This document shows, piece after piece, positions 8,914 through 33,335 of a stretch of DNA of 40,442 nt (positions within the stretch are counted from its first letter, which is position 1; each line of letters starts with the position of its first letter). Location: NCBI GenBank assembly GCA_024648695.1, contig JACAVV010000040.1, forward strand, positions 1-40,442. Reading direction: 5' to 3'. The notes beneath the pieces are model-generated. The model had not been told where the DNA came from and did not search any database. It saw only the letters and a program-made list of their open reading frames with translations. This DNA comes from Nitrospina sp. (lineage in GTDB: Bacteria; Nitrospinota; Nitrospinia; Nitrospinales; JACRGP01). The position numbers and the translations under genes are program-made.

Positions 8914-10545
8914 ATGTCCTTTAAATATATTAAGATTTTATCTTTAGTTTGTTTATGGTTAATGCTCTCAAACTCAGTCCTTGCCCATGACATCACTCCA
9001 AACTCTCTTATTTTTGACAAATCAGTAAATGATGACTTTGAAAATCCTCCAACCCTGACCTTTGAAGTTACCGACAATACAGGCTGTAATGCCGATATTA
9101 CTGCAACCTCGAATGACACAGAAGTTGTAAGGGTAAGCCCATCTGCCCAGGAAGGGGTTTCTGTGGAGTTTGAAGTGATCAGGGCAGGAAAGTTTGGTCC
9201 AGCCTCCACAACAATACTTGTTACTTTTAAAGGTAAGGGAACTAATTCAGAAGGCGTTGAGTGTAATGATGATGCGTCTGGAATTGTTAATGTTGAGGTG
9301 AAACCTGGAATCCTTGAAGTCACTCCAAATGCGGCAACCCACTTTGTAATGAGCCAGGGAGATCTATCGTCAAAAAAAAGTAATAATACAAGTTATACAG
9401 CATCCAATGTGGGTGATGATTTTTTAGCTTTTAAACAGAGTACAGCCACAGAGTGGATTAATGTATCGCAAGATACATTGCTTCACATTAGTTTACCCGT
9501 ACCTTTAACAAAAGTTGAATTGGTAGATAAGGTGGTTGAGTTTTATAATCAAGGATTATATTCGGGAAAAGCTGATGTTATTAATGCGACAAATGGAATG
9601 GGAAGCACTTCGATTCCTGTTTTTCTTTTGGTTGGCTCCAAGGATGAAGTAATAGCCCTCCCTCCTGATAGCTTCTTTGCCTGCAACCGTATGGGTAAAT
9701 GCGATCCCGCCAATCCGACAGTGGCTATGGGGAATGCAAATGAAACCTCCCAGGAGGTTACGGTCAGTTCGGATCAAGATTGGCTGGATATACTCATTGA
9801 GGAGATTACATCTGGAAATGATGTAAAAAATGATGTCAAGCCAGAACAGGGGTTTTTAAAGTACCAGGCGCAAACTGCCAATACAACATTGGAACCAGGG
9901 AATATCGTCAATGTTGCTACGACTCCCAATTCCAATGTTTATAACCTGCCCGACGGGAAACATTCGGCAACCTTGACATTTACAGATACCAACACTCAGG
10001 AAATATTGGCAACCCGCATGGTCTCAATGACATTGGCTGAAGACGCCTTTTTTAAATTCCCCAACGACTCGAAAGTGGTTTCCCCTTATTGGCAAACGGA
10101 TTCGGGTACCTATACCTTTATGTCCGTTTCGCACCCGTCCCTTTCAGGAATGAGTTCCCGTATAGGGGTTTCGGTTTCAGCCGTTGCAAACTCTGGACTT
10201 TCCATTGATGTGCCTGCAGAATTCACAATATCTTCCGGTGAGTCTGAGAAAGTTTTCATTGTGACGACCAACAACTCTGTAATCAACCCGACGAACCTGC
10301 CGAACGATCAACTCATCACAGCCAACGAATCGGGTGGACACGGGCAGGTGATCATCAATCCGGTCGCATCCAATCCCAAGGAACGTGCCGGCAGTGATGG
10401 TGCCGGATTTCGCGATGTAACCATGCTCAGTCTTTGGGGGGCTGTGGTTATACTGAATAACTCAACAGGTTTCGCCATGGAGTTTGTGGGCGATTTGAAA
10501 GATTCGCGCGCGGTGGATTCAGGTAAGTTCAGCGGAGTGAATTGA
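8914..10545 (+). CDS. Secreted multi-domain protein, paralogue 1 of 3
   Basis: Of unknown function, 543 residues. A Sec signal peptide ends at SVLA-HD (after residue 24), leaving His at the mature N-terminus. A first beta-rich Ig-like domain (about 25-135) has Cys in TGCNADITA and VECNDDA, likely a disulfide. Two further beta-sandwich modules follow (about 135-245 and 245-380), with WINVS and DWLDI and PGxxV spacing that resemble BACON-type repeats; FFACNRMGKCDP carries a second Cys pair. The C-terminal domain (about 385-543) contains YWQTDSGTYTF and ends in FSGVN. No enzyme motif or sorting signal is recognised. AAGGG at 8901-8905 sets the start. It heads a three-gene tandem array. Confidence 0.85.
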   Translation: MSFKYIKILSLVCLWLMLSNSVLAHDITPNSLIFDKSVNDDFENPPTLTFEVTDNTGCNADITATSNDTEVVRVSPSAQEGVSVEFEVIRAGKFGPASTTILVTFKGKGTNSEGVECNDDASGIVNVEVKPGILEVTPNAATHFVMSQGDLSSKKSNNTSYTASNVGDDFLAFKQSTATEWINVSQDTLLHISLPVPLTKVELVDKVVEFYNQGLYSGKADVINATNGMGSTSIPVFLLVGSKDEVIALPPDSFFACNRMGKCDPANPTVAMGNANETSQEVTVSSDQDWLDILIEEITSGNDVKNDVKPEQGFLKYQAQTANTTLEPGNIVNVATTPNSNVYNLPDGKHSATLTFTDTNTQEILATRMVSMTLAEDAFFKFPNDSKVVSPYWQTDSGTYTFMSVSHPSLSGMSSRIGVSVSAVANSGLSIDVPAEFTISSGESEKVFIVTTNNSVINPTNLPNDQLITANESGGHGQVIINPVASNPKERAGSDGAGFRDVTMLSLWGAVVILNNSTGFAMEFVGDLKDSRAVDSGKFSGVN

Positions 10546-10581
10546 TTAGCTCTTTTATTTTAGTGCAAAAGGAATCCTGAA

Positions 10582-12231
10582 ATGAATATTTTAAAACAAA
10601 ACAAGGCCGTTCTATTATTAATTTTTGTTTTTGTAATGGGTGTATTCATTTCTCCCGGTTTGGCCCATGAAATCACTCCCAGTTCCCTGGTTTTTGATAA
10701 AACCGTCAATGTCAATGAACATCCCAATTTGAAGATTCGAGTGAAAGATAACACAGGATGCAATGCGGATATTACGGCTACCGTCTCCGACACTTCAGTT
10801 GTTGAAGTCATTCCAACCGAACAGGAAGGAGTGGATGTAGAATTCACCGTTGAAAAGATTGGATTTGGGCCTGCTTCCACTACTATAAGGGTGACTTTTA
10901 AAGGCAAGGGTACCAATTCTATGGGGGGAGCTTGCACTGACGATGCTTTTGCAGATGTCAATGTCGAAATCAAACCAGGGGTTCTGGAAGTCTCTCCGGA
11001 AGTGGCTTCAGTTTTTGTATTTACCCAGGGGAGTTTAAGTATAAAGAGCAAGCAAGTGAACTATTCTATTTCTAATGTTGGGGATGATGAAATTTCGGTA
11101 TTGGGTAGAAATTTCCAAAAATGGGCGCAGATAAATGAAGCGGGCACTTTAAATCCCCTGATAGAATTTGTCGCACCGGGGCAAACCAGTTCCACGCAGG
11201 CTCGTGTGAGTATTGTGGATGTCGCTTTGGGTGTAGGTTTACATAAGGATATGGCGACTATTACCAATGGTACAAATGGTATGGGGAACACTTCTATTCC
11301 CATTTTTTTCTTGATCGGTTCGGCCAATGATACGCTTGTGGTGGTTTCTGACAGTTTTTTTTCCTGTAACCGTAGTGGCAAATGCGATCCGGAACAGCCC
11401 AGTGTTGCCATGGGAAATGCTGAGGATAGTTCAAAAGGGGTTACGGTGACCTCCAGTGAGAATTGGGTGGACCTCGCTATTGCCGATATAACTGCAGGAA
11501 GTGATTCAAAAGCGAATATTGCCGGTCAGGTTTTTATGGAACCACAAGCTCAAACCGCGAACACAATTGTGGAGTCTGGCGATATTGTTAATGTAAACAT
11601 CACACCCAACAGCAATAGTGCAAATTTGCCAAACGGAAAGCATGAGGCGGTTCTGACATTTGCAGACACGGATACTAACGAAGTGCTGGCCACTCGAACC
11701 GTTTCTTTTGCCTTGACGGATGACCCCTTTCCCCAATTTGCCAAAGACTCAAAAATTGTTTCTCCCTATTGGCAGGCCGATTCTGCAACTTATACTTTTA
11801 TGTCCGTATCGCATCCTTCCATGTCGGGGATGAACTCCCGCATTGGGGTATCTATATCAGCGGTTTCCAATTCCGGTGTTTCCGTCGACGCGCCTGCAGA
11901 ATTTACTATTTCCTCCGGAGAGTCGGAGAAAATTTTCATCGTGACGACCAATAACACCGTTATCAATCCGACGAATCTGCCAAACGATCAACTCATCGTT
12001 GCCGACGAGGATGGAGGACATGGGCAGGTGATTATCAATCCAATAGCATCTAATCCCAAGGAACGACGGGCCGGGGGTGGTGAGGGCGCAGGATTTAGGG
12101 ATGTCACCATGTTGAGCCTTTGGGGGGCTGTGGTGATCCTAAATAATTCAACCGGTTTTGCCATGGAATTTGTGGGCGATTTGAAAGACTCTCGTGCCAT
12201 TAATACGGGTGTATTTAGTGGGTTGAATTGA
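10582..12231 (+). CDS. Secreted multi-domain protein, paralogue 2 of 3
   Basis: The 549-residue protein is collinear with its neighbours. The signal peptide ends at GLA-HE (after residue 28). The Ig-like first domain starts EITPSSLVFDKTVN and has Cys in TGCNADITA and GACTDDA. Two BACON-like modules follow, the second opening with FFSCNRSGKCDP. The C-terminal domain has YWQADSATYTF and HPSMSGMNSRIG and ends in FSGLN. It starts 36 nt after paralogue 1 with AAGGAA upstream. The codons of the conserved C-terminal block differ at many third positions from the neighbours, so duplication is old and the protein sequence is under constraint. Confidence 0.85.
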   Translation: MNILKQNKAVLLLIFVFVMGVFISPGLAHEITPSSLVFDKTVNVNEHPNLKIRVKDNTGCNADITATVSDTSVVEVIPTEQEGVDVEFTVEKIGFGPASTTIRVTFKGKGTNSMGGACTDDAFADVNVEIKPGVLEVSPEVASVFVFTQGSLSIKSKQVNYSISNVGDDEISVLGRNFQKWAQINEAGTLNPLIEFVAPGQTSSTQARVSIVDVALGVGLHKDMATITNGTNGMGNTSIPIFFLIGSANDTLVVVSDSFFSCNRSGKCDPEQPSVAMGNAEDSSKGVTVTSSENWVDLAIADITAGSDSKANIAGQVFMEPQAQTANTIVESGDIVNVNITPNSNSANLPNGKHEAVLTFADTDTNEVLATRTVSFALTDDPFPQFAKDSKIVSPYWQADSATYTFMSVSHPSMSGMNSRIGVSISAVSNSGVSVDAPAEFTISSGESEKIFIVTTNNTVINPTNLPNDQLIVADEDGGHGQVIINPIASNPKERRAGGGEGAGFRDVTMLSLWGAVVILNNSTGFAMEFVGDLKDSRAINTGVFSGLN

Positions 12232-12260
12232 AAAAATATTATTTCGAAACAAGGTAGGAT

Positions 12261-13913
12261 ATGGGGCTTATGTTGAGTTTTAAGAAAATCTTGAAAATGA
12301 TGGGATTCCCAATCATCCTTCTTGTTTTTAGTAATCCAGTATGGGCGCATGATATTACTCCGAGTTCACTTGTTTTTGATAAAACCGTGAATATCAACAA
12401 TCCAGCGACTCTGACCTTCGAGGTGAAAGACGAAACCGGATGCAATGCCGATATTACTGCCACCGTTGAAGATACTTCCGTAGTCACCGTGAGCCCAGCC
12501 GAGCAAGAGGGGGTAGAAACTTTATTCACCGTGACCAAAGTAGCAAGGGGTCCGGCTTCTACAAGTATTCGTGTGATTTTTAAAGGTAAGGGAACCAATC
12601 CCATGGGAGGGGCCTGTTTGGACGATGCTTTTGGGGATGTGGATGTAGAAATCAAACCGGGTATTCTCGAAATAACGCCAAAAACAGCCACGGTTTTTGT
12701 TGCCAAGGATGGCGAAATGTTTGGTAAAGGAAATGATATTGAATATTCCGCAACAAATACAGGCGATGACGCTATTTTCATGGATTCGGACGGGAGTCAA
12801 TCCTGGGTTTCTGTGGAAGACCCTACAGGGGGATTTTTTAATGGTTTTCTTGACCCCGGTGAAACTGCGTCAGATAAAGCCATAATTTCCTTGTTTTTAC
12901 CTAATCCCCTGGGAACAGGATTGTTTGAGGGAACCGCTAACTTTAAAAATGAAACTAATGGTTTAGGCGATACCTCAATTCCTGTTTTCTTTTTGGTAGG
13001 AGAAAAGGAAGAGGTGGTTGCTTTATTGCCCAATCAGTTTTTCTCCTGCAACAGAAATGGCAAATGCGATCCAGAAAACCCTACCCTTACTTTAGGAAAC
13101 CCGGAGGATACTACTCTGGAAGTGACCGTTACTTCCGATCAAGACTGGATTGATTTAGCTGTTTCATCGTTTCCTACCGATGAAAACTCTCAACCAAACC
13201 CGGAATCTGGAAATGGTTTTGCATTGCCTAAAGCCCAATCAGCCGATGTTACTCTGGAGCCGGGGCGAGTGGTGATCATTGATTTTACTGCGAATAGTAA
13301 TATCAATAATTTACCCAATGGGAACCACCAGGCGACGATTACTTTTACGAATATAATCACCAATGAAGTATTGGCGACTCGTAAACTCACTGCCACTTTG
13401 ACAGACGACCCTTTGCCAAAGTCCCAAAATGAATCAAAGGTTATAGCCCCCTTTTGGCAAACCGATTCAGGCACCTACACCTTTATGTCGATTGCGCATC
13501 CCTCCCTGGAAAGAATGAATTCGCGAATAGGAGTTTCCATTTCAGCCGTTAAAAATTCAGGGGTCTCCCTGGCATTACCAAAGGAGTTTACAATCTCATC
13601 CGGGGAGTCTCGAAAGATTTTCATTGTTGCTACCAATAATATAAACATCAATCCGACCAACCTTCCTGACGATGAGCTTATCATTGGCAATGAGGAGACC
13701 GGACACGGTATGGTAGTGATTAACCCTGTTGCCAGCGATCCTAAAGAAATGTCCGGGAGCGGTGAAGGCGCAGGTTTCCAGGATGTTACGATGTTGAGTC
13801 TTTGGGGCGCAGTGGTGATTCAGGGTAATTCGACGGGATTCGCCATGGAGTTTGTGGGAGACTTGAAAGATTCGCGTTCGGTAAATTCAGGGAATTTCAG
13901 TGGGGTGAATTGA
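12261..13913 (+). CDS. Secreted multi-domain protein, paralogue 3 of 3
   Basis: The 550-residue protein repeats the same order: signal peptide ending at VWA-HD (after residue 29), Ig-like domain with TGCNADITA and GACLDDA, two BACON-like modules with FFSCNRNGKCDP, and the C-terminal domain with FWQTDSGTYTF ending in FSGVN. It is the most divergent in the middle modules (long NPESGNGF insertion region). The ATG at 12261 has AAGGTAGG just upstream; a second ATG at 12270 is possible. It lies 29 nt after paralogue 2. Location is probably periplasm, outer surface or medium; function unknown. Confidence 0.85.
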   Translation: MGLMLSFKKILKMMGFPIILLVFSNPVWAHDITPSSLVFDKTVNINNPATLTFEVKDETGCNADITATVEDTSVVTVSPAEQEGVETLFTVTKVARGPASTSIRVIFKGKGTNPMGGACLDDAFGDVDVEIKPGILEITPKTATVFVAKDGEMFGKGNDIEYSATNTGDDAIFMDSDGSQSWVSVEDPTGGFFNGFLDPGETASDKAIISLFLPNPLGTGLFEGTANFKNETNGLGDTSIPVFFLVGEKEEVVALLPNQFFSCNRNGKCDPENPTLTLGNPEDTTLEVTVTSDQDWIDLAVSSFPTDENSQPNPESGNGFALPKAQSADVTLEPGRVVIIDFTANSNINNLPNGNHQATITFTNIITNEVLATRKLTATLTDDPLPKSQNESKVIAPFWQTDSGTYTFMSIAHPSLERMNSRIGVSISAVKNSGVSLALPKEFTISSGESRKIFIVATNNININPTNLPDDELIIGNEETGHGMVVINPVASDPKEMSGSGEGAGFQDVTMLSLWGAVVIQGNSTGFAMEFVGDLKDSRSVNSGNFSGVN

Positions 13914-14390: not shown

Positions 14391-15098
14391 ATGCTATCTG
14401 AAACTTTCAGCCCTTTAATCCAACTGAAGGCCGTCTCTAAATTCTACCAGACTGGGGAGACGCGCGTGTGCGCTCTTTCGGATGTGAATGCAGAATTGAA
14501 TCGTGGAGATTTTGTCACGGTCATGGGTCCGTCGGGGGGCGGCAAGACGACGTTTCTCAATTGCGTCGGTGGATTGGACACGCCTGATGAAGGTGAGATC
14601 GTTTTGAATGGGCGGTTGATGTCGGGCATGGACGATAACGCACTCACCCTTTTGCGCCGAAAGGAAATCGGGTTCGTCTTCCAGTTTTTCAATTTACTGC
14701 CGACTCTGACCGTTTGGGAAAATGTTGAATTGCCCCTCCTTCTTGCCCAATGGAAACAGCAGGACGATCCGCGCATTCAGGAATTGCTGGAGTTTGTCGG
14801 CCTCGAAACCCGCGCGCAATCCTTTCCCGCCGAACTTTCCGGAGGGCAAATGCAAAGAGTCGCCATCGCGCGGGCTCTGGTGCATCGGCCATCCATCATT
14901 TTAGCCGATGAACCTACCGGAAACCTGGACTCCGAAAACGGTGCTAAAATTCTGGATTTGCTTAATCAGGTTTCCACCGAATTTCAAGCGACCATCGTGA
15001 TGGCCACACACAATCCGCTGGGAGCGAGCTACGGCAACCGGCATTTTGAAATCCGCGATGGCCGCATGACGGAACACACCTCTTCCAAACAACCTTAG
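14391..15098 (+). CDS. ABC transporter ATP-binding protein, LolD/MacB-type
   Basis: A 235-residue ATPase of the family that powers FtsX-type permeases. Walker A GPSGGGKT is at residues 46-53, signature [15 protein letters not shown] near 149, and Walker [13 protein letters not shown] near 168, the last being typical of the LolD/MacB/FtsE group. The following permease starts immediately after its stop (TAG then ATG), so they form one unit. The start lacks an obvious ribosome binding site. Function could be lipoprotein release or export of a peptide or lipid; it cannot be resolved from sequence. Confidence 0.9.
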
Positions 15099-17675
15099 AT
15101 GTCCATGCGTTATTTTTGGGACCTGTTCAAAGCGCTCATTCTTCGTCCTCTTTTAGGGGATCCCTTTCGCACGCTTATCACTGTTTTGGGTGTTGCTATT
15201 GGCGTTTCCGTATTTCTAAGCATTCAATTGGCGAATCGCCAGACGATGCTGTCGTTTAAGGAAAGCGTCGATCTGGTGGTGGGCAAGGCGGATGCGGTGA
15301 TTCACGCCGAGGGGATGTCCTTCGATGAAAAATATTTTGCCGCTTTGCATCCCCTTAGGGAATGGGTCAAGCCGTACCCTGTGATCGAAGGTTATGGTGT
15401 GGAACAAAATTCAAACGAGGTGGTGGAAATCCTTGGAACCGATTTGCTTCAGGACAGTGGCATACGGGATTTTTCTCTGCAAACCGTGGGAGACGGATTG
15501 AAGGGTCTGCTTCCCATCATCATGGATCCTGTGGGCATTGTGTTGCCGGAAAAATTCATACCTGATTCCAGTTTTAAGGTGGGCGACTCTATACATTTTC
15601 AAATACAGGGCAAAACCAAAGAGTTGAAGGTGAATGCCATTCTGGAGAGCAAAGGAATCGCCAAGGCTCTGAACGGTAATTTTGGCATGATGGACATCGC
15701 CGCCGCCCAAAATGTTTTTGGCAAGATTGGCAAACTGGATCGCATCGACCTTGTCTTTTTAAAGGACCGGAAATTTGACCGCATGCGGAAAAAACTAAAA
15801 GATGTGCTTCCGGAGTTTTTACGCATTGACCGCCCCAAGCGCAAGAACCAGCAAGTCGAAAAAATGTTGCGCGCGTTTCAATACAATCTTTCGGCGCTCA
15901 GTTTTGTAGCTTTGCTGGTGGCTTTGTACCTCATCTACAACATGATTGCGCTTTCCGTTGTACGCCGTCGCACCGAGATAGGCACCTTACGCGCTATGGG
16001 GGCCACTCCCTGGGTCATTGCTTTTATTTTTTTACTGGAAGCGGGCATCGTTGGAAGCATCGGATCGATAATTGGTATTTTTCTGGGAGCGGGTTTTGCC
16101 CAGTTTTCGCTGGATGCCATATCTATAACTGTCAACAACCTGTACGCTCCATCCTACGCGACAGAAATCGATTTTCACTGGGAAGAAATGGGGCCCTATT
16201 TTTTGATGGGTGTTGGCTTGTCTTTCGTCTCCGCACTCATTCCGGCCTACGATGCTTCAAAAACTCCGCCTACCCTGGTGATGCGACGGGGCAGTTACGA
16301 TTTAAAAGTATATCGGGGTAATCGACGGCTCGATCGTTTTGCTTGGGTCACCTGCATCCTCGCCGGAATATGCACTCTGCTTCCTGCCATCGACAACTTT
16401 CCCTACTTTGGATTTTTTTCGGTGTTTTTGCTGATCCTTGGATTGTCCCTGTTCTCGCCTTCGCTTTTGTTGAAGGCCCGTCAGGTTTTGCGGGTTCCCT
16501 GCAAACGCTGGTTTGGCGGCGAAGGTTTGATGGCCTGCATGAACCTGGCGCAAAATGTGGGGCGCAACGCCATTTCCGTTTCAGCCCTTGCCATCGCATT
16601 CATGATGATCATCAGCATGTCGATAATGGTTCACAGTTTTCGGCAAACGGTGGTGGTGTGGATCAACCAGACCTTGCAGGCGGATGTGTTTGTCCGTCTG
16701 GTGGCAGGGAAGAATATCGATTATCAATACACACTCCCGGCCAGGCGGGTCGAGGATTTAAAAAAATTGCCCGGCGTGCGGGCTGTCGATTTGTTTCGCG
16801 CGCTGGATATATCTTACGACGACCAACCGGCGATTTTAGCTTCAGGAGATTTTTCGGTAGTCTCTCAACTCGGAAACCTGGTGATCAAAGACGGACCGCC
16901 TTCTGCCGAACTTGCCGGATTTATGGTGGACCAGCCGCGGGCTATGATCTCGGAAGCGTTTTCCCTGAAACACAAACTGAATCGGGGCGATCCTATCACC
17001 TTGCACACACCCGGTGGAAAACTTGACCTGGAAGTGGCGGCTGTATACTACGACTATTCCCAGGAACGCGGTTATATCATCATTGATCGTTCGACCTACT
17101 TGAAATATTATCAAGATCCCACCGTTAACAGTTTTGTCATTTATCTGGATGACAAATCCGAATTGAACCAGGTTCGCAAGCAAATCGTTGCAGGAATCGG
17201 TAAGGATTTCAGCATTCTCATTCGATCCAACTCGGAACTAAAAAAGGAAGTGCTCGAAATTTTTGATCGTACCTTCGCCATCACCTATTCTCTGGAGATC
17301 ATCGCCATTCTGGTAGCCATGCTTGGCCTGTTCAATACGCTTGTGTCCATGATTCTGGAGCGCAAACGTGAAATCGGGATTTTGCGTTTTTTGGGAGCTT
17401 TTAAACAGCAGATCAAAAAGATGGTTTATGTCGAAGCGTGGATATTGGGCATGATCGGCTCTGCGGTGGGTTTGCTTGCGGGGGTCCTGGTTTCTTACAT
17501 ATTGATTTTCGTGATTAACAAGCAGTCCTTTGGCTGGACCATCCAGGTTTATTTTCCCTATGGATTTATACTTTTTGCTACAGTGGGATTCTGGTTTATA
17601 GCGACTTTGGCGGGAATTTACCCTGCCCGATTGGGTGCGAAAGTAAATCCCATGGAATCGGTACGCGTGGAATGA
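15099..17675 (+). CDS. FtsX-domain ABC transporter permease (two FtsX domains)
   Basis: An 858-residue inner-membrane permease. The first TM helix (about 24-44) is followed by a periplasmic MacB-like domain, then three helices (about 264-385) forming the first FtsX domain. Two to three more helices lie around 415-450 and 500-520, then a second periplasmic domain, and three C-terminal helices (about 720-850) make the second FtsX domain, ending in PARLGAKVNPMESVRVE. RRTEIGTLRAMGAT and RKREIGILRFLGA are the two conserved cytoplasmic loops. A single chain with two FtsX domains can serve as a full transporter with the ATPase upstream. Such transporters in other bacteria act on lipoproteins, lipids or peptides. 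Confidence 0.88.
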   Translation: MSMRYFWDLFKALILRPLLGDPFRTLITVLGVAIGVSVFLSIQLANRQTMLSFKESVDLVVGKADAVIHAEGMSFDEKYFAALHPLREWVKPYPVIEGYGVEQNSNEVVEILGTDLLQDSGIRDFSLQTVGDGLKGLLPIIMDPVGIVLPEKFIPDSSFKVGDSIHFQIQGKTKELKVNAILESKGIAKALNGNFGMMDIAAAQNVFGKIGKLDRIDLVFLKDRKFDRMRKKLKDVLPEFLRIDRPKRKNQQVEKMLRAFQYNLSALSFVALLVALYLIYNMIALSVVRRRTEIGTLRAMGATPWVIAFIFLLEAGIVGSIGSIIGIFLGAGFAQFSLDAISITVNNLYAPSYATEIDFHWEEMGPYFLMGVGLSFVSALIPAYDASKTPPTLVMRRGSYDLKVYRGNRRLDRFAWVTCILAGICTLLPAIDNFPYFGFFSVFLLILGLSLFSPSLLLKARQVLRVPCKRWFGGEGLMACMNLAQNVGRNAISVSALAIAFMMIISMSIMVHSFRQTVVVWINQTLQADVFVRLVAGKNIDYQYTLPARRVEDLKKLPGVRAVDLFRALDISYDDQPAILASGDFSVVSQLGNLVIKDGPPSAELAGFMVDQPRAMISEAFSLKHKLNRGDPITLHTPGGKLDLEVAAVYYDYSQERGYIIIDRSTYLKYYQDPTVNSFVIYLDDKSELNQVRKQIVAGIGKDFSILIRSNSELKKEVLEIFDRTFAITYSLEIIAILVAMLGLFNTLVSMILERKREIGILRFLGAFKQQIKKMVYVEAWILGMIGSAVGLLAGVLVSYILIFVINKQSFGWTIQVYFPYGFILFATVGFWFIATLAGIYPARLGAKVNPMESVRVE

Positions 17676-23843: not shown

Positions 23844-24701
23844 TTAACCTTTCCCGAACACCTTCATATTTTCTTTTCTGTCCTCTTCCAGAATTTTGTC
23901 CCAATCACGTTTAATGTGTGGGGCGGCCTGGAAATCTTCATAAATGGTTTTGGCCAGTTCCGTGCGGTCAATACCTTCAGGAGCCACCTGGATATCCAAC
24001 TGGGCAAGCGCCATATCAAAATCCAGTTCCAGCAGGGATGCCGGGTCCATGGAATATTCTTTCAACGCTTCCTTGATGGTTGCCGGGTTCACGCTGAATC
24101 GACGTGCCACTTCATGAATATTTGAGGGTTTATATTCTTTTTTGGGGCCAATACCCAGATGGTAGGCACAGAACAATTGAAATGCATCGATATTGGCAAT
24201 CATTTCCTTTTGCGGTTTACCCAAAGACGCATTATTGTTCCGGTTTTGAGGTTCCTTTTTACGGTCCTGAAAATCGCGCTTGGGCCGTTGGCCTGATCTC
24301 GGCTTCTGAAATCCGTTTCCATTGGAGGAATGAGATTTATTTTTATCGAATTGGTTACGGTTTTTCGGCTTGGATTTATAGCCCTGGTTTCCGTTCCCGT
24401 TTCCATTCCCGTTAGAGGTCTGTTTTCTAGAAAAACCCGGACCCGTCTGGGCCAGAATATGGGACGTGAAGGTGCCCGATGAGGGCTCCATCCATTGCTT
24501 GACCGCTTCCGCATTGCTTTTGTTGTGTCCGGAACGGTATTGTCCATTGGGATTGTGGGACCGGTGCTGTCCGTTTGAAGAGCCTGAACGGAACTGACCT
24601 TGCCCGTTGGAATGGGAACGGGCAGGGCGGCCATTCCCATTGTTATTGCGCTGGAAGTTTCCCGGGTTTTGGGGACGCCGGGACTGGTTTTGTTTTTTCA
24701 A
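23844..24701 (-). CDS. Asn/Gly/Arg-rich disordered protein with conserved C-terminal helical domain
   Basis: The first 165 of 285 residues are low complexity, dominated by N, G, R, Q, S and K, with runs such as NGNGNGNGN and repeated SNGQxxRS units. The last 115 residues look folded: QLFCAYHLGIG, then EVARRFSVNPATIKEAL, which resembles a helix-turn-helix, then DFDMALAQLDIQVAPEG. The start is TTG at 24701, chosen because AAAGGAT lies about 10 nt upstream and no ATG occurs in the first 70 codons. Basic, disordered tails of this type often bind RNA or form condensates; that is inference. I recall similar C-terminal domains in delta-proteobacterial hypotheticals. Confidence 0.72.
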   Translation of the reverse strand: MKKQNQSRRPQNPGNFQRNNNGNGRPARSHSNGQGQFRSGSSNGQHRSHNPNGQYRSGHNKSNAEAVKQWMEPSSGTFTSHILAQTGPGFSRKQTSNGNGNGNGNQGYKSKPKNRNQFDKNKSHSSNGNGFQKPRSGQRPKRDFQDRKKEPQNRNNNASLGKPQKEMIANIDAFQLFCAYHLGIGPKKEYKPSNIHEVARRFSVNPATIKEALKEYSMDPASLLELDFDMALAQLDIQVAPEGIDRTELAKTIYEDFQAAPHIKRDWDKILEEDRKENMKVFGKG

Positions 24702-24769
24702 AACTTCAATCCTTTATGAAGATGGTTGGCGTTGAGGGAAGGTCCCTAGTTCGAAACAGTCTCGAACAA

Positions 24770-26578
24770 TCAGGCACACAGGGATTCCAGTTCATCAACT
24801 AGTCTGGAAAAGGTGCTCAACGCTGTTTGTATCGGAGCGGGGTGGGTCATATCAATGCCCGCTCCTTTAAGTAAATCGATCGGGTACTCGGAACCACCTG
24901 ATTTCAGAAAGTTCAGGTAGTCCTGCAATTCCTGCTCACCCCCGTTCAATACCCGGTCGACTAAAGCATAGGCGGCGGAGATTCCCGTCGCGTATTTGTA
25001 AACGTAAAACCCGAAATAAAAATGGGGAATACGAAAACATTCGAGGTTCAGGCAGTCGTCGAGGACCACGCCTTCGCCGAAATAAAGTTCCAGTAACTTT
25101 TTGTAAGTTTCTTGAAACGCCTCAACCGTCATAGGCTGATTTTCCTGGACGGCTTTATGGATGAGGTGTTCAAACTCGGCAAACATCGTTTGCCTGTAAA
25201 GAGTCCCTCGAAAATTATCAATCTCCCGGCAAAGCAAATAGATTTTCATTTCCCGGTCGGGATTTTGATCCATAAAGTAGCGGGTCAACATAGCCTCGTT
25301 GAAAGTGGAAGCCACCTCGGCTACGAAAATTGTGTAATCCGCATAAACGTAGGATTGATGGGATCTCGAAAAATAACTGTGCATCGAATGGCCCGCTTCA
25401 TGGGCCAAAGTGTAGAGGCTGTTGATATGGTCCTCTTTATAGTTTAACAGAATAAATGGGTTGGAGTCATAACAACCTGAGGAATACGCTCCACTGCGTT
25501 TACCTTTGTTTTCAAACCGGTCGACCCAACGGTCTTCCAGCAATCCTCGCTTTAAAATGGAACCGTACTCTTCGCCCAAAGGTTTCACCGCTTCCAGGGT
25601 TTTGTCGACGGCTTCCTCATAAGTCATGGACCATTTAAAATCTTTTACCAGTGGAACGGCGCAATCGTAAATGTGAAGTTCTTCCAGGCCGAGTATCTTT
25701 TTTCTGAGAGCAAAATATTTATACAGGGGTTCCAGGTTTTCATGAACGGTTGTGATGAGATTGTCGTAAACCTGAACCGGTATGTTCTCGTCAAACAAGG
25801 CTTTTTCACGTGTGGATGCATGACTGCGAGTGCGACTGTAAAACAAATCTTTTTTCAGGTTCGACGCGAGCAAGCTGGAAAACGTATAGCGATGATTCTC
25901 ATAAGCTTTGTAAAATGTTTCAAACACATTTTTACGAAACGGCCGGTCGTAACTTTGTAACAGGCTTCCGAAATTACCGTGTGTGATCCGGGTTTCCTTT
26001 CCTTCTGAATCCTTTACCGTTCCAAACTGAAGGTCCGCGTTATCGAGCATGCCAAAGGCGTCATACGAAGCGCGTGAAAGCTCTGCGCAGGAAGCGAGTA
26101 AGGCTTCTTCCTTTTCTGAAAGAATATGATCCTGAAACCTGAGAATTTTTTGAATATGATATTTGTAATCTGCCAGATCATCATCTGCTAGAAAAGTTTC
26201 CATCGTTTCTGTCGGGATTGCGACGAGTTCCGAATCGATGAAACTTCTTGCCTGCATCCATTGGGTTCGGATACGCATGGATTTTTCATATTTTTGCTGG
26301 TTGCCCGAGTGGGTCTTGTCTTCATCGTTTCGCAAATGCGCGTAGTTGAAAATACGTTCCAGCTTGCGCGCGCAATCCATATCGAAATCGAGACAATGTT
26401 TTATATGCCGGGCCGATTGACTGAGAGTTCCGCGAAACTCCTCATAGCCTGGAATCCCGGATTCCACAGTCTTGAATAATTCTTCCCAGTCCTGGTCACT
26501 GGCAAAAAGCCCAGACAAATTCCAGGTCGCTTGTTCAGGAATGCTTTCCCGGGAAACCCATTCTACAGTAGCATCCAT
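24770..26578 (-). CDS. pepF: Oligoendopeptidase F (M3B family)
   Basis: A cytoplasmic zinc peptidase for short peptides. HEAGH (near residue 393) within YTLAHEAGHSMHSYFS is the M3 zinc site, and the downstream ligand Glu lies in FVAEVASTFNEAML. The N-terminal helical domain and length (602) are normal for PepF. It lies 62 nt downstream of valS in the same direction and 68 nt upstream of the disordered-protein gene. Confidence 0.92.
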   Translation of the reverse strand: MDATVEWVSRESIPEQATWNLSGLFASDQDWEELFKTVESGIPGYEEFRGTLSQSARHIKHCLDFDMDCARKLERIFNYAHLRNDEDKTHSGNQQKYEKSMRIRTQWMQARSFIDSELVAIPTETMETFLADDDLADYKYHIQKILRFQDHILSEKEEALLASCAELSRASYDAFGMLDNADLQFGTVKDSEGKETRITHGNFGSLLQSYDRPFRKNVFETFYKAYENHRYTFSSLLASNLKKDLFYSRTRSHASTREKALFDENIPVQVYDNLITTVHENLEPLYKYFALRKKILGLEELHIYDCAVPLVKDFKWSMTYEEAVDKTLEAVKPLGEEYGSILKRGLLEDRWVDRFENKGKRSGAYSSGCYDSNPFILLNYKEDHINSLYTLAHEAGHSMHSYFSRSHQSYVYADYTIFVAEVASTFNEAMLTRYFMDQNPDREMKIYLLCREIDNFRGTLYRQTMFAEFEHLIHKAVQENQPMTVEAFQETYKKLLELYFGEGVVLDDCLNLECFRIPHFYFGFYVYKYATGISAAYALVDRVLNGGEQELQDYLNFLKSGGSEYPIDLLKGAGIDMTHPAPIQTALSTFSRLVDELESLCA

Positions 26579-26640
26579 ATTCAGATCAGGTGTTTAAATT
26601 AATGAAAATAGCCGAGTCGACAACGGTGAGATAGCCTGCA

Positions 26641-29289
26641 TCATGCGAGGGCTTCTTCGACTGTTTTTAAATTCAATTGCAATTTGGCTTGCTTGTCCGA
26701 AAGAGTATCGAGCCTGAGTTGGTCTTTTTCGATGACCTCGGGAGGAGCCTTTTTTACAAAGTCCTCGTTGGAAAGCTTCTTATTTATGAATATGATGTCT
26801 TTTTCAATTTTTTTCAACTCTTTTTCGATGCGTTTTTTCTCATCGGAAAAATCCATCAAGCCTTCCAGGGGAATGTAAATCTCCATTCCCTGCAAAACAC
26901 AAGAAGCGGCAACTTCGGGTTTGGTCAAATCCGGGCCTACGGTCAGGTCTTCCACCCGTGCCAAATCCTTAATATATGGGGCATATCGCTCTAGCAGGTC
27001 CTTACTCTTCTGATCGTGTGTTTTGATCAGAACCTTGAGCATTTTTCCCGGATTGATATTCATTTCCCCGCGAATGTTGCGAATTCCTGTTATAGCGGAC
27101 TGCACTTCCGCCATTTGTGTTTCAGCTTCCACATACCGTTTTTCATCCATATATTGTGGAAAATCCGCTCGCATCAGAGTGTCCCCTTGAACGGGAAGTT
27201 TCTGCCAGATTTCCTCGGTGATGAAAGGCATGAATGGGTGAAGCAATCGCAACCCTGTTTCCAGTACATGAACCAGAACATTTTGTGTGACCGGTTTGTT
27301 CGGCCCATCGGACATCAAAACCGATTTGGAGAGTTCGATGTACCAATCGCAAAATTCATTCCAGATGAATTTGTAAATCGCCGAGGCACCTTCATTGAAC
27401 TTGAACTCGTCCAGAGCCTGGTTTACCTCTTTACAAGTTTCATTGAGTCGGCTCAGAATCCAGCGATCCGCCAGGTTTCTTTCTTCATGAGTTTCCAGTT
27501 CGGTACTGCCCGCATACCCTTCCAGGTTCATGAAAGCGAAGCGCGATGCATTCCACAACTTGTTACAAAAGTTTCTGTAACCGGAGATGCGCTCTTCCGC
27601 CAGTTTGATATCGCGTCCTTGCGCCGCAAATGCGGCTAACGTAAAGCGAAGGGCATCGGTTCCATATTTATCCATCATCACCAGCGGATCGATGACATTG
27701 CCTTTGGTCTTACTCATTTTAGCGCCTTCGGCATCGCGAATCAGGGCATGGATGTAAACATGGGTGAAAGGAACCTGTCCCATGAATTTCAGGCCCATCA
27801 TCATCATTCGAGCAACCCAGAAAAACAGGATGTCGAATCCGGTACAAAGCACGGAAGTGGGGTAATACCGTTTCAAGGATTCCGTTTGTTCCGGCCAGCC
27901 AAGGGTAGAAAAAGGCCATAAAGCGGAACTGAACCAGGTGTCCAGAACATCGCTTTCCTGAGTTATATTCTTATTTCCGCATTGTCCGCATGCTCCTGGT
28001 GTTTCGCGGGAAACAGTCAGGTGATCGCAAGATGAGCAATTCCAGGCCGGGATTTGATGCCCCCACCAAATCTGCCGCGAGATGCACCAGTCGCGGATGT
28101 TTTCCATCCATTCGAAGTAGGTGTTCTCCCAGAATTTGGGAACGATTTGAGTGGTTCCTTCTCGAACCGCTTTCATCGCTTCGTCTGCAAGAGTTTTGGT
28201 TTTGACGAACCATTGCTTGGACACATAGGGCTCGATTACGGTCCGGCACCGGTAACACTTTCCAACCGAGTGCTGAAGGTCTTCCATGTGGGACAGTTGA
28301 CCCTTCTCTTTCAAATGCTCAACCAATTCCTCCCGGCATTTGTATCGGTCCATACCCTTATAGGGACCGGCGTTTTCATTCATCGTCCCATCAGGGTTCA
28401 TAATATTGATGGATGGCAATTCGTGTCGGCGGCCAATTTCGAAATCGTTAGGGTCGTGCGCGGGAGTTACTTTCAATGCACCGGTACCGAATTCAGTGTC
28501 CACGTAACTGTCTTTTATGATCGGAATTTCGCGTTCCAGAATCGGGAGGATCACCGATTTGCCATCGATATTGCTGTAGCGGGGATCATCCGGGTTCACG
28601 GCGACAGCCGTGTCCCCCAACAAAGTTTCGGGTCGAGTCGTGGCAATAGTCAGAACCTCGTCACTGCCTTTTATTGAATATTTGATATGGTACAAATGGC
28701 CTTTAGATTCTTCGAATTCCACTTCCAGGTCGGAAAGTGCGGTGTGGCACCGGGGACACCAATTGATGATGTAGTCCCCTTTGTAAATCAACCCTTCTTC
28801 ATAAAGCGAAACGAACACCTCGCGAACGGCCCTGGACAAACCGTCGTCCATCGTGAAACGGTTGCGGTCCCAATCGAGAGAGGCTCCCAGCTTTTTGAGT
28901 TGATTCTCAATCGTTCCACCAGACTCCTCCCGCCATTTCCAAACCCGCTTGACGAACTCTTCACGTCCCAGAGTTTCCCGATCTGTACCTTCAGCTTTCA
29001 ATTGGCGTTCAACCACATTTTGGGTGGCAATGCCGGCATGGTCTGTTCCCGGTTGCCACAAGGTGTTGAAACCCTGCATACGTTTTCTGCGAACGAGGAT
29101 ATCTTGCAGGGTATTGTTGAACGCATGGCCGATGTGCAGTGAGCCGGTAACGTTAGGGGGAGGAATGACAATACTGAAGTGAGGATGATTTTTGGTTTCA
29201 TCCGCACGGAAGTAGTGGTTGTCCATCCAATACCGGTTCCATTTATCTTCTACGGTTTTGGGGTCGTACTGTTTTCCTAATTCCATCAT
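26641..29289 (-). CDS. valS: Valyl-tRNA synthetase
   Basis: Class I aminoacyl-tRNA synthetase charging tRNA-Val. HIGH is at residues 52-55 in PPPNVTGSLHIGHAF, and KMSKTKGN (near 523) is the KMSKS loop with Thr in the last position, a common variant. The editing domain (about 190-340), anticodon-binding domain and C-terminal coiled coil (about 815-882) are present; length 882 is normal. Two consecutive ATGs (29289 and 29286) are possible starts; the ribosome binding site is weak. I see no T-box leader in the 280 nt upstream. Confidence 0.97.
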   Translation of the reverse strand: MMELGKQYDPKTVEDKWNRYWMDNHYFRADETKNHPHFSIVIPPPNVTGSLHIGHAFNNTLQDILVRRKRMQGFNTLWQPGTDHAGIATQNVVERQLKAEGTDRETLGREEFVKRVWKWREESGGTIENQLKKLGASLDWDRNRFTMDDGLSRAVREVFVSLYEEGLIYKGDYIINWCPRCHTALSDLEVEFEESKGHLYHIKYSIKGSDEVLTIATTRPETLLGDTAVAVNPDDPRYSNIDGKSVILPILEREIPIIKDSYVDTEFGTGALKVTPAHDPNDFEIGRRHELPSINIMNPDGTMNENAGPYKGMDRYKCREELVEHLKEKGQLSHMEDLQHSVGKCYRCRTVIEPYVSKQWFVKTKTLADEAMKAVREGTTQIVPKFWENTYFEWMENIRDWCISRQIWWGHQIPAWNCSSCDHLTVSRETPGACGQCGNKNITQESDVLDTWFSSALWPFSTLGWPEQTESLKRYYPTSVLCTGFDILFFWVARMMMMGLKFMGQVPFTHVYIHALIRDAEGAKMSKTKGNVIDPLVMMDKYGTDALRFTLAAFAAQGRDIKLAEERISGYRNFCNKLWNASRFAFMNLEGYAGSTELETHEERNLADRWILSRLNETCKEVNQALDEFKFNEGASAIYKFIWNEFCDWYIELSKSVLMSDGPNKPVTQNVLVHVLETGLRLLHPFMPFITEEIWQKLPVQGDTLMRADFPQYMDEKRYVEAETQMAEVQSAITGIRNIRGEMNINPGKMLKVLIKTHDQKSKDLLERYAPYIKDLARVEDLTVGPDLTKPEVAASCVLQGMEIYIPLEGLMDFSDEKKRIEKELKKIEKDIIFINKKLSNEDFVKKAPPEVIEKDQLRLDTLSDKQAKLQLNLKTVEEALA

Positions 29290-29466
29290 AAATCTAAAAA
29301 GGGAAAATTACATTTCGAGATCTTCGAAACAAGTGCGATGTCAATTTAATGAACTTGAGATTTTCTGATCAATAGTTATCAATACTCGAATGATTTGAAA
29401 TTCCGGGGGCTTCTCTATGGAAGGATGGTTCTTAAGAGGGCCTCTGATAACTCTATCGTTTAAAAG

Positions 29467-29513
29467 TTCCTGACTTCAAGCAGGAAAATTTTTCTGTGGC
29501 CTCGATGGCCACA
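29467..29513 (-). terminator. Tandem hairpins downstream of the receiver-protein gene
   Basis: On the minus strand, past the stop at 29571, TGTGGCC/GGCCACA (29513-29495, 5-nt loop) is followed by GAAAAATTTT, then TTCCTG/CAGGAA (29486-29467, 8-nt loop) followed by CTTTT. Either or both could end the transcript before valS. The rest of the 280-nt gap (29290-29570) shows nothing else definite. Confidence 0.4.
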
Positions 29514-29570
29514 AGCAATGCCCGGATATGCTTATATATCAGTTATAGCACATTCCCAGGCTAAATGGGA

Positions 29571-30992
29571 TCACTTCTTTTCCGCCTCACGAATTTTACG
29601 AATTTCCTCCTGAATGATTTCCCGGGCGATTAGCGGTGTGACTTCACCGATGGTTTTTTTAACCAATTCAAGAATGGAATCGGATAGCCCGGCAAGTTCC
29701 TTTTTCAGGCTGGTGTTTAACGAACGTTCTACAATTTGAAGGATGTGCTCGTCTGTGATTTGAGGCAAAACTTTTTGTTCTACAGTTTCCGGATGGGATG
29801 GTACTCCTCCAGACACGGGCTTGTCAAGTGCCGGTTCTTTGGATCCATTGGCCGGTTTTTCAGGGTCGCTTTGAGAGAATCCTAAAGTCTCTTTTATCAA
29901 GTCCGGTTTCAAAGGATTGGTATCTGAAAAAACAGAGGGAGCGATTTGTTCCAGTAAATTATCTGGTTCCAGACCCACATCGTTTAAGTCCGGAAGGTCC
30001 TCAAACTGAGGGTCTTCAGAACCCTGTGGTGTAGACGCTTCTTGAGGGTCAGCAGAGGTGCTCTCAATCATTTCGCTTAATTCGCGGAAAGCTAAATCGA
30101 GATCGTCAATGGAATCCATTTCCGTGGCCGACACATCTGCCAATTCATCATCAACAGTTTCTTCCGTGTCGTCCAGAGAGGCCACGGAGTCGCTCATTGT
30201 GGATTCTGCATCCGGTTCTGTTTCACCAGAGACTTCGGACAAAATATCATCAGGAATTTCAGATGCATCCATAGAGGAATTGATGGGGCCCCATGTATTG
30301 ACTTTTTCTTCCGGGGACTCTTCGGGCATTTCCTGTTCTTCTAGATCCTGGACAACCGAATCTTCCTCTGACTCTACCGGTTCTTCCTCTGGACTCTCTT
30401 CGGTTTCATCTTCCGTTCTCAATTCTTCTTCGGATGGAGATGTGTCTGAGGAAGTTGACTCCTCTTTTTCCTCTTCAACAACGGCTTCCATAGAAAGCTG
30501 GACGACATCCTTTTCCGTATTGGCTTCAACCGGGTCCCCTTCCGGGATATCTTCATCTTCTTCGATGATGTCCGATTCCGAAAGGGAAATGATATAAGGT
30601 TCGGTGGGTGTATCATCTTGCGGGTTTTTTTGCAGAAGCTCCCTTATCTTTTGAATGATATCTTCCGATTTAAAAGGTTTGGCAATAAAGTCATCTGCCT
30701 GCGATTCGTTAAAAAGGGTTTCGTTGAACTCTTCAAAATCGCTGGTGAGGAGGAGAACCATAATCGATTGGAATCCATCCGTTTCCTTTATTTTTTTGCT
30801 GAGTTGATATCCGTTCAAGCCGGGCATGTCGGTATCTGCCAGAACGATTCGCGGATTCATTTCGGTCAATTGCTCGAAGGCTTCGTTACCATCGCCGATC
30901 CCTTCAACAGAAATATCTTCCGTTTCAAACGCCATGGCTACGATTTTTTGAATCGCTAAACTATCGTCGGCAACCAGGATTTTTGTTTTCAT
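29571..30992 (-). CDS. Response regulator receiver with acidic linker and helical C-terminus
   Basis: Residues 1-120 are a receiver domain: acidic pocket Asp9-Asp10, phospho-acceptor Asp53 in LADTDMPG, Thr83 and Lys105. Residues about 125-390 are strongly acidic, rich in E, S, D and P, and probably disordered. The last 75 residues are amphipathic helices (EHILQIVERSLNTSLKK, then APLI-like REIIQEEIRKIREAEKK). No DNA-binding or enzyme domain is seen. Similar short C-terminal helices occur, as I recall, in delta-proteobacterial regulators. AAAGGAAG precedes the ATG. Confidence 0.8.
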   Translation of the reverse strand: MKTKILVADDSLAIQKIVAMAFETEDISVEGIGDGNEAFEQLTEMNPRIVLADTDMPGLNGYQLSKKIKETDGFQSIMVLLLTSDFEEFNETLFNESQADDFIAKPFKSEDIIQKIRELLQKNPQDDTPTEPYIISLSESDIIEEDEDIPEGDPVEANTEKDVVQLSMEAVVEEEKEESTSSDTSPSEEELRTEDETEESPEEEPVESEEDSVVQDLEEQEMPEESPEEKVNTWGPINSSMDASEIPDDILSEVSGETEPDAESTMSDSVASLDDTEETVDDELADVSATEMDSIDDLDLAFRELSEMIESTSADPQEASTPQGSEDPQFEDLPDLNDVGLEPDNLLEQIAPSVFSDTNPLKPDLIKETLGFSQSDPEKPANGSKEPALDKPVSGGVPSHPETVEQKVLPQITDEHILQIVERSLNTSLKKELAGLSDSILELVKKTIGEVTPLIAREIIQEEIRKIREAEKK

Positions 30993-31355
30993 GGAAAAAC
31001 TTCCTTTTTCTGGGCGGGATAAGGAATCAGGATTGGGATTATTGTTAAGCCAGTTTTGGCATTTGAGGCATGGTCCCCAAACCGCATAATCATATCATAT
31101 TTTGGCATCATGAACCAACAAAACGGGACGGAAGAAATAGAAATTGTCAACTTTTTTCAATAAGTTGCGGGAAATGGCCCGGAGAAATTTTAGTGTAAAG
31201 CTGTTTTGCCAGAAGGGCATTTTAATGGTAGGATATTTGTTTCAAATTTCCCATTTAATTTCAAACACGTACATAATTTACGAAAGGCCTTTGTGTCCAA
31301 ACTGATCCCATTGCATAGAAGTGCTTTTGCAATAGACTCCAAACATGGTTTTTTA

Positions 31356-33335
31356 ATGGGTCGGGAAGTGCGCAAAATTGATCAGTTGAAACATTCAATT
31401 TTCAAAATTTTCCTTACTGGAATGTTGTGCATCCTGTTTTGTGCTTTTTCAATTCCGGTTTCGGCGGAAGTTGACTATAAGCAAATCGATGCGGTGATCG
31501 ATGTAAAAACCAAATATAGCGACGGGTGCTCCACAATTCAGGAACTGGCCAATGTGGCGAAACATCGAAAAATTGATGCGGTGGTGTACGCCGATCACGA
31601 TTTGCAGTCCCTGGAATACGGCTTTTGGCCTTTGGAACGAATTATAAAACGCAGGGAAGAGTGGTCTTCAATTTTGGCAACCAGTCCTTCCACGTATCTC
31701 GCAGAAATTAATGCGGGCGATAAAAGCTTTAAAGATCTGGTCCTGATTCCAGCAGTGGAATCGTCTCCCTTTTATTACTGGACCGGAGACTACGGGGACG
31801 ACAGCCTGGTAGCCAATGACTGGGACAAGCATCTTTTGATCATTGGCCTGCCTAACGCCCGTGACTATGAAAAACTTCCGGTTTTAAACGGAAAACTTTC
31901 GAGCCGGTACACACGGGACTTGTTGATGGGGTTTTTGTTGTACCTCGTTTTGTTTGGCGGTTGCTTCGTTCTGGTTTATTACCGCATTTTCCGGAAACTG
32001 ACAATTCCCCTGTTGGTTTTCATGTTTCTCATGCTTGTCAATAATCATCCGTTTCAAAGTTCACTGTTTGATCAATATCATGGGGATCGGGGCATACAAC
32101 CTTATCAGGAAATGATCGATTACGCCGCCTCCCAAGGCGCGATGGTGTTCTGGAACCATCTTGAATCGATAACAGAAAATGGTCCAAAAGGGCAAGTGCA
32201 GGTTCAGACGGAACCACATCCGGAAGATTTAATCCTGTCCACTAATTACACTGGATTTCAGGCGGTTCATGATCAACCTGTTATTGCGTCGGAGCCTGGC
32301 AACGAATGGGACCGCTTGTTGACCGAATACATTCGTGGAAAAAAAAGACAGGCGATCTGGGGGTATGGCGGTAACGATTTTCATTGTGAAGGCAAAGACA
32401 AGCATGTTCTGGGTGGAGTACGAACGGTCCTTTTGGTTAAAGAAAAAAACAGGACGGAAGTTCAAAATGCCATGCGCGCCGGGCGCATGTACGCCACCCG
32501 GCAACCGGATGAGAACCGAAGGCTGTCCCTGGATACGTTTGAGCTGGCCGACAAAGTCACAGGAAAAAGTGCCACTCTTGGTGAGGATTTGCAGACACTG
32601 AATCATCCCCTACTTAAGATCGGTTTGACTTCCCGTAATCCCGAAGACAGAAACGTAAAAGTCAGCCTGGTCCGCAATGGTACCCTGGTGAAGGAATTCC
32701 GTGGCACACTTCCTTTTAAAATGGAATGGAAGGACCGCGAGGTGGCCAGGCAGGGAAAGGCGTATTACAGGATCAAGGCCGAGGTTTCACCGGATAATTA
32801 TTTATTGTCCAACCCCATATTTACCAGTTTCAGCAAGGAACCGGCGCAGGTGGCTTCGCTCCCTCCCAGGAAGTCCCCTGCAAAAATCAATTCAGGTGCG
32901 GCTCCAGTCAATACGCCGAAACCCGGGCCTCAAGCCATATCGCCTCCACCTATTAATAAGCCTCAGCCCATCCCTGGACTTGGAAGTCATGGGAAGGCAA
33001 ACAAACCACCTGTGGGAGCCGTATCGCAAACGCCCATTGTTAAAGAGTTGCCATTTTTGAAGTCCAGGACCCAGCCATTAAAAAACTCCGGGTTCACTGG
33101 AAATGTTGTTCCCGGTTCGGGAAGTGGGTTTGTTAGGCCTAAACTGGATGGAGTTGCTTTAAAACGTGAACCCGGAAGTCACTTTCCTCCAGCGGTCCTG
33201 GTCAACAGGAATGATCGCCTGAGTTTGCTGGGCCAAACGGACGTTTTGTTTTATGGCAAACCCTGGTTGAAAGTGATGAAAGGAAATGAAACTTTTTATG
33301 TTTGGGAACCTTTGGTTGAAAGGTCGGATTCCTGA
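31356..33335 (+). CDS. PHP-like membrane protein with degenerate metal site
   Basis: The signal peptide ends at VSA-E (residue 37). A PHP-type fold follows, with KYSDG, YADHDLQS, PAVESS, WNHLES and GGNDFHCE corresponding to PHP motifs. The first motif, normally HxH before the SDG, reads DVKTKYSDG, so two usual metal-binding His are missing. Two transmembrane helices (about 189-232) are inserted inside the domain. A Pro-rich segment (about 500-600) and an SH3-like tail end the protein. The frame is open to 31206, but the ATG at 31356 gives a proper signal peptide; no ribosome binding site is clear. Function unknown; phosphoesterase activity is doubtful. Confidence 0.72.
   Translation: MGREVRKIDQLKHSIFKIFLTGMLCILFCAFSIPVSAEVDYKQIDAVIDVKTKYSDGCSTIQELANVAKHRKIDAVVYADHDLQSLEYGFWPLERIIKRREEWSSILATSPSTYLAEINAGDKSFKDLVLIPAVESSPFYYWTGDYGDDSLVANDWDKHLLIIGLPNARDYEKLPVLNGKLSSRYTRDLLMGFLLYLVLFGGCFVLVYYRIFRKLTIPLLVFMFLMLVNNHPFQSSLFDQYHGDRGIQPYQEMIDYAASQGAMVFWNHLESITENGPKGQVQVQTEPHPEDLILSTNYTGFQAVHDQPVIASEPGNEWDRLLTEYIRGKKRQAIWGYGGNDFHCEGKDKHVLGGVRTVLLVKEKNRTEVQNAMRAGRMYATRQPDENRRLSLDTFELADKVTGKSATLGEDLQTLNHPLLKIGLTSRNPEDRNVKVSLVRNGTLVKEFRGTLPFKMEWKDREVARQGKAYYRIKAEVSPDNYLLSNPIFTSFSKEPAQVASLPPRKSPAKINSGAAPVNTPKPGPQAISPPPINKPQPIPGLGSHGKANKPPVGAVSQTPIVKELPFLKSRTQPLKNSGFTGNVVPGSGSGFVRPKLDGVALKREPGSHFPPAVLVNRNDRLSLLGQTDVLFYGKPWLKVMKGNETFYVWEPLVERSDS

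Follow-up and report, generated by a model that had tools for sequence, protein, structure and literature searches.

The window, i.e., the whole stretch of 40,442 nucleotides that was analysed, contains three tandem genes (Table 1). The coordinates, codon counts (543, 549 and 550) and order given for them in the original prediction are exact. The spacers between the genes measure 36 and 29 nt, which fits a single operon or transcription unit; promoter and terminator scans gave a signal near the shuffled expectation and were left out of the interpretation. A LolD-like ABC ATPase followed by an 858-aa duplicated FtsX/LolCE-like permease lies 477 nt downstream (14391-17675 of the window), and no evidence ties this pair to the trio.

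Table 1. Position in the window of the three paralogues and of their parts.
Feature	Position	Strand	Length	Description and basis
Paralogue 1	8914..10545	+	543 aa	Signal peptide, three beta-sandwich (Ig-/BACON-like) domains, putative C-terminal display domain; layout transferred from the paralogue 2 model
Paralogue 2	10582..12231	+	549 aa	Layout as paralogue 1; AlphaFold model
Paralogue 3	12261..13913	+	550 aa	Layout as paralogue 1
Putative C-terminal display domain, paralogue 1	10048..10542	+		Genome and profile searches
Putative C-terminal display domain, paralogue 2	11728..12228	+		Modelled alone as a beta-sandwich, pLDDT 87.5
Putative C-terminal display domain, paralogue 3	13413..13910	+		Genome and profile searches
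Putative signal peptide, paralogue 2	10582..10665	+	residues 1-28	Hydrophobic N-terminus; helix 3-22 in the model; cleavage expected, by eye, after ...GLA
Passenger, paralogue 2	10681..11721	+		Three beta-sandwiches, residues about 34-131, 135-247 and 252-380; full length in the trio only

The three proteins are 57-62% identical (61% and 57% to the first paralogue). The alignment confirms (i) two invariant Cys pairs, C58/C117 and C257/C263 (CNRxGKCDP; numbering of the first protein) and (ii) an almost invariant ending, DVTMLSLWGAVVI...MEFVGDLKDSR...FSG(V/L)N, both of which had been predicted. In the codon analysis synonymous change is saturating (pS 0.72-0.80; pN 0.25-0.29), and dN/dS is about 0.08-0.13 over the full gene length and about 0.07 within the C-terminal domain: the genes are old duplicates under purifying selection, as had been proposed. 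At the protein level the first domain is 67-73% identical, the middle part 43-47% and the C-terminal domain 71-84%; the most constrained part is the C-terminal end.

In the AlphaFold model of full-length paralogue 2 (mean pLDDT 78.5) a signal helix is followed by three beta-sandwiches in a row and then by the C-terminal domain (about 388-549). Foldseek matched this model only to generic strings of Ig, cadherin or adhesin-type domains, with an rmsd of 12-36 A. With 280 residues of the passenger as query, the only full-length matches among 77 Nitrospinota genomes were the three window genes, and the first 250 or so mature residues are private to this genome. The name «BACON-like» given to the inner modules is supported indirectly: Pfam has no match in the window proteins themselves, and a BACON_2 match is found in the relative L027, inside the region that aligns to residues 134-549 of the middle paralogue. 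A search of a viral library returned one marginal capsid match, which is read as a beta-sandwich resemblance.

The object of main interest is the C-terminal domain rather than the trio. With the middle paralogue as query, its own genome (G000; 4.2 Mb, 56 contigs) gave 50 matches; beyond the trio nearly all of them lie within, or cover, query residues ~380-549. The profile search found 46 copies of this domain (~165 residues) in the genome, and 40 domain-bearing regions were retrieved. In nearly every case the domain forms the very C-terminal end of an ORF that is otherwise unlike the rest, with lengths of about 480 to 5370 aa; together these ORFs account for about 4.2% of the genome bases. A hydrophobic, signal-peptide-like N-terminal segment is present in 36 of 43 of these ORFs; of the remaining seven, several run into a contig edge or are borderline. 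The passengers are very acidic (median pI 4.1). The proteins of the trio are secreted, ancient paralogues of an uncatalogued kind, as the original prediction held, but they do not form one private family of ~545 residues: their C-terminal domain is a separate, mobile module, of which stand-alone versions exist throughout the order. The largest cargo is an ORF of 5368 aa with 37 cysteines and the domain at its end (L036:1208-17311, contig C5).

The carboxyl tail is highly constant. Nearly all copies end in GDxxDSRA...(F/V)SGxN-COOH: among 43 own-genome copies, GDxxDS is present in 42 and is spaced from the carboxyl terminus by exactly 18 residues in 36, and 39 end in [SA]GxN, where x is V, L, I, M or T. 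The Gly and Asn of the tail end are invariant in 33 aligned tagged proteins. There is only one clear exception to the C-terminal position, L074:753-5276 (minus strand; contig C34, about 178552-183075), in which the domain directly follows the signal peptide and precedes Calx-beta and RHS/YD repeats.

AlphaFold2, with 62 sequences, models the domain as a nine-strand beta-sandwich (pLDDT 87.5, pTM 0.82) with a tail end of low confidence. A conserved, unfolded carboxyl tail of constant length suggests that it is recognised by, or inserted into, a partner. Against the 62 domain members, Pfam and NCBIfam gave no consistent model, i.e., only scattered chance matches to single members. The PDB sequence search found no match (best E 0.18) and Foldseek found nothing in the PDB below E 0.001. 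The best short structural neighbour is TM1070 of Thermotoga maritima (PDB 1nc7; probability 0.92-0.97, TM-score by target 0.55-0.57, E-value 0.03-0.09), at 8-9% identity and an rmsd of 4.7-6.3 A, which is a likeness of fold and does not imply kinship. Nothing relevant on a tail domain or a secretion system of Nitrospinota came up in the literature searches. On the basis of these searches and of the model, the domain is a previously uncatalogued folded module. The claim that the trio carries no known sorting tag is correct insofar as no catalogued tag matches; it missed that the shared end recurs as a C-terminal module in its own right.

The cargo of the domain is mixed. Pfam scans of most passengers of this genome found FG-GAP repeats, Calx-beta, BACON_2, He_PIG, HYDIN-like Ig domains, NHL and SBBP beta-propeller repeats and DUF7948. 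The enzymes are two subtilases (L053, L056) and three M12B reprolysin-like metalloproteases (L038, L049, L057). Single-linkage clustering of the passengers was uninformative, as shared repeats merged 37 of 39. One terminal domain on unrelated extracellular enzymes and giant repeat proteins is the pattern that would be expected of a localisation or export tag. Five consecutive large genes on the same strand (L046, L044, L037, L047 and L060; about 1400-2500 aa; contig C45, 149992-176174) each carry the domain at their end, with FG-GAP repeats in all four members that were scanned and, mostly, Calx-beta.

This cargo bears on two other explanations. The trio could be a self-contained adhesin or sheath family whose conserved end is merely its most constrained domain, as tandem duplication, purifying selection and the private passenger would suggest; this is very improbable and largely refuted by the diversity of the cargo, since the same end is common to about 40 proteins with unrelated other domains. 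An adhesive role of the trio passenger itself, apart from that reading, may still hold. Alternatively, the domain could be an effector or an adhesive or ligand-binding (e.g., sugar-binding) module fused to many surface proteins and devoid of any localising role. Its beta-sandwich distantly resembles TM1070 and agarase beta-sandwich domains and secreted stand-alone forms exist; we consider this explanation improbable, since it leaves unexplained why the position hardly varies, why the tail length is fixed and why the SGxN end recurs on unrelated cargo, proteases included.

The survey of distribution and copy number found the domain in 40 of 77 Nitrospinota genomes. There are 46 copies in the own genome, 9 and 11 in two genomes of a sister genus (G006 and G007, respectively) and 0-6, often 2, elsewhere, so that the expansion is lineage-specific. 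The usual two copies are stand-alone secreted proteins of about 200 aa each, i.e., a signal peptide plus the domain; some of the stand-alone proteins end in PAAP and not in SGxN, so that the terminal tail is not universal. In the own genome this pair (L054:3223-4498 and L077; contig C53, about 24000-33050) is divergent from a pilus cluster that encodes PilC, a conserved unknown protein, two PilT/PilU-family ATPases, a RodZ-like protein and a PilW/Tgl-like TPR lipoprotein; another TPR lipoprotein is on its other flank. The neighbourhood of the pair with pilC, pilT, pilU, the rodZ-like gene and the PilW-like TPR lipoprotein gene is conserved across Nitrospinota genomes.

In the maximum-likelihood tree, which is midpoint-rooted and whose bootstrap is not fully settled (inner support values are thus rough), the second gene of the pair (type B, support 100/99) is split off from a set (100/99) in which type A, the first gene, is united with almost all of the fused tags. 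Because of this split the tags group with type A rather than with type B. Apparently a small secreted protein became a C-terminal tag, and relatives preserve copy numbers in between. In the sister genus the cargo again includes a subtilase, an M12B protease, Calx-beta and SBBP/DUF7948 proteins; endings such as GDMQDSRAFSSANFSGVN occur there. In another Nitrospinaceae lineage (L018, L019) the domain is found on an M12B protease encoded just after a stand-alone pair, and this recruitment looks independent.

Beyond Nitrospinota the only matches were L013 and L014, filed under «Alphaproteobacteria» and «Gammaproteobacteria», respectively; the scan over genome contigs used a few peptide patterns, so that distant relatives may exist elsewhere. 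Both look like mis-binned Nitrospinota DNA, the domain being on one short contig per genome. In the tree, L013, whose contig holds the Nitrospinota pair, falls with that pair, and the copies of L014 are nearest to those of Nitrospinaceae (L015, L016). The genome of L014 is the only one with matches among 299 of the phylum in which it is filed.

The domain was compared with known sorting and secretion systems. The proteins exported by the type IX secretion system (T9SS) are a mixed cargo that combines a signal peptide with a folded C-terminal domain, whose terminal motif is essential (PMC10202324). The likeness with its type A (PF18962/TIGR04183) and type B (PF13585/TIGR04131) domains extends to a folded beta-sandwich, a conserved terminal motif and mixed Sec-exported cargo that includes proteases and giant adhesins (PMC10202324); the N-terminal Sec signal feature is likewise present on most tagged ORFs. 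The differences are that (i) the present domain, of about 165 aa, is twice as long as the 72-position TIGR04183 model; (ii) it has stand-alone copies beside pilus genes; (iii) it comes from Nitrospinota, whereas the T9SS is described from Bacteroidota. None of the four models matched the 62 domain members, and TIGR04183 is absent from the own and 8 related genomes while the positive control was detected. Membership of the T9SS is thus rejected. SprA_N, searched for the translocon (SprA/Sov), had no match in the genome, but none in the control genomes either.

The main rival explanation is that the domain is an outer-membrane secretion signal for a T9SS-like or T2SS-like translocon, perhaps cleaved afterwards, with anchoring as a secondary matter. 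It has the same logic as T9SS cargo (PMC10202324), and a GspD-like secretin above the curated cut-off is present in the genome. We regard it as rather unlikely: besides the absence of the T9SS tail domain, the secretin is phylum-wide, genomes devoid of the domain included, and it was not detected in G006 and G007 (85-86% complete, 9-11 copies of the domain). The distribution of the secretin does not follow that of the domain, so that co-occurrence does not support a T2SS link; since it occurs also without the domain, the secretin would be at most a general export route. The N-terminal and the stand-alone copies also count against a purely terminal signal.

PEP-CTERM-type tags finish with a transmembrane helix followed by a basic tail. 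With the PEP-CTERM/exosortase and similar short signals the domain shares its recurrence at the C-terminus of many unrelated exported proteins of one genome. Unlike them, it has neither a transmembrane helix nor a basic tail (highest 19-residue hydropathy 1.55; about one Lys or Arg in the last 15 residues), nor does it match any NCBIfam CTERM model; this type of sorting is thus rejected. An exosortase-family protein (L113, PF09721 over the cut-off; contig C21:7169-7948) is encoded in the genome and presumably serves other cargo. Type I secretion (RTX-type), whose cargo has an uncleaved C-terminal signal and no N-terminal Sec signal, does not fit either, most intact proteins having a signal-like N-terminus. 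By analogy, the domain would work like known C-terminal sorting or anchoring domains, yet the tests of membership that were run for these speak against it.

On balance we lean towards the reading that the domain is a lineage-specific C-terminal module for surface display, i.e., anchoring or assembly, with the trio as three of its passengers and a scaffold that perhaps includes the stand-alone pair. In such a scheme, each tagged protein would be exported by Sec and would then cross the outer membrane. The folded beta-sandwich and its exposed GDxxDSRA...FSGxN-COOH tail would be recognised by, or dock into, a cell-envelope scaffold, in the periplasm or at the outer membrane. Homology and gene order suggest that this scaffold may be, or contain, the two stand-alone copies beside the type IV pilus genes. 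The passenger, which in the trio consists of three acidic Ig-like domains with Cys pairs, could then be kept on the outside of the cell, where it would serve adhesion or the building of a matrix. The N-terminal copy in L074 favours such a docking module over a strictly C-terminal signal. Against display count those Nitrospinota that had no detectable copies in the profile search of 77 genomes and thrive nonetheless and, as far as a strictly terminal tag is concerned, L074 and the stand-alone proteins that end in PAAP.

In this scheme the trio would be three surface-displayed Ig-like proteins, probably adhesive or structural. Of the surface adhesive or sheath role first suggested for them, the surface is plausible and the adhesion is inferred. 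A wider proposal, which we hold only tentatively as a possibility, is that Nitrospinota have a surface-assembly system of their own: the pilus-linked pair of stand-alone beta-sandwiches would be an envelope scaffold, and one lineage would have made a tag for the C-terminus out of the first of the two, by whose conserved SGxN end about 40 giant proteins and proteases are routed onto the scaffold.

Nitrospinota include major marine nitrite oxidisers, and the literature searches turned up nothing on the way in which these bacteria present proteins at the cell surface. By means of the domain, about 40 exported proteins of one species can be recognised as likely to use a single pathway. The domain also names candidate surface adhesins and proteases, and the stand-alone pair is a place to look for the machinery. 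Lastly, stop-riddled remnants of the domain, including a ...SGIN or SGLN end, are found in the genome (L075, C26:345-473; L076, C1:79661-79765); these are decayed copies, and the domain family thus turns over.
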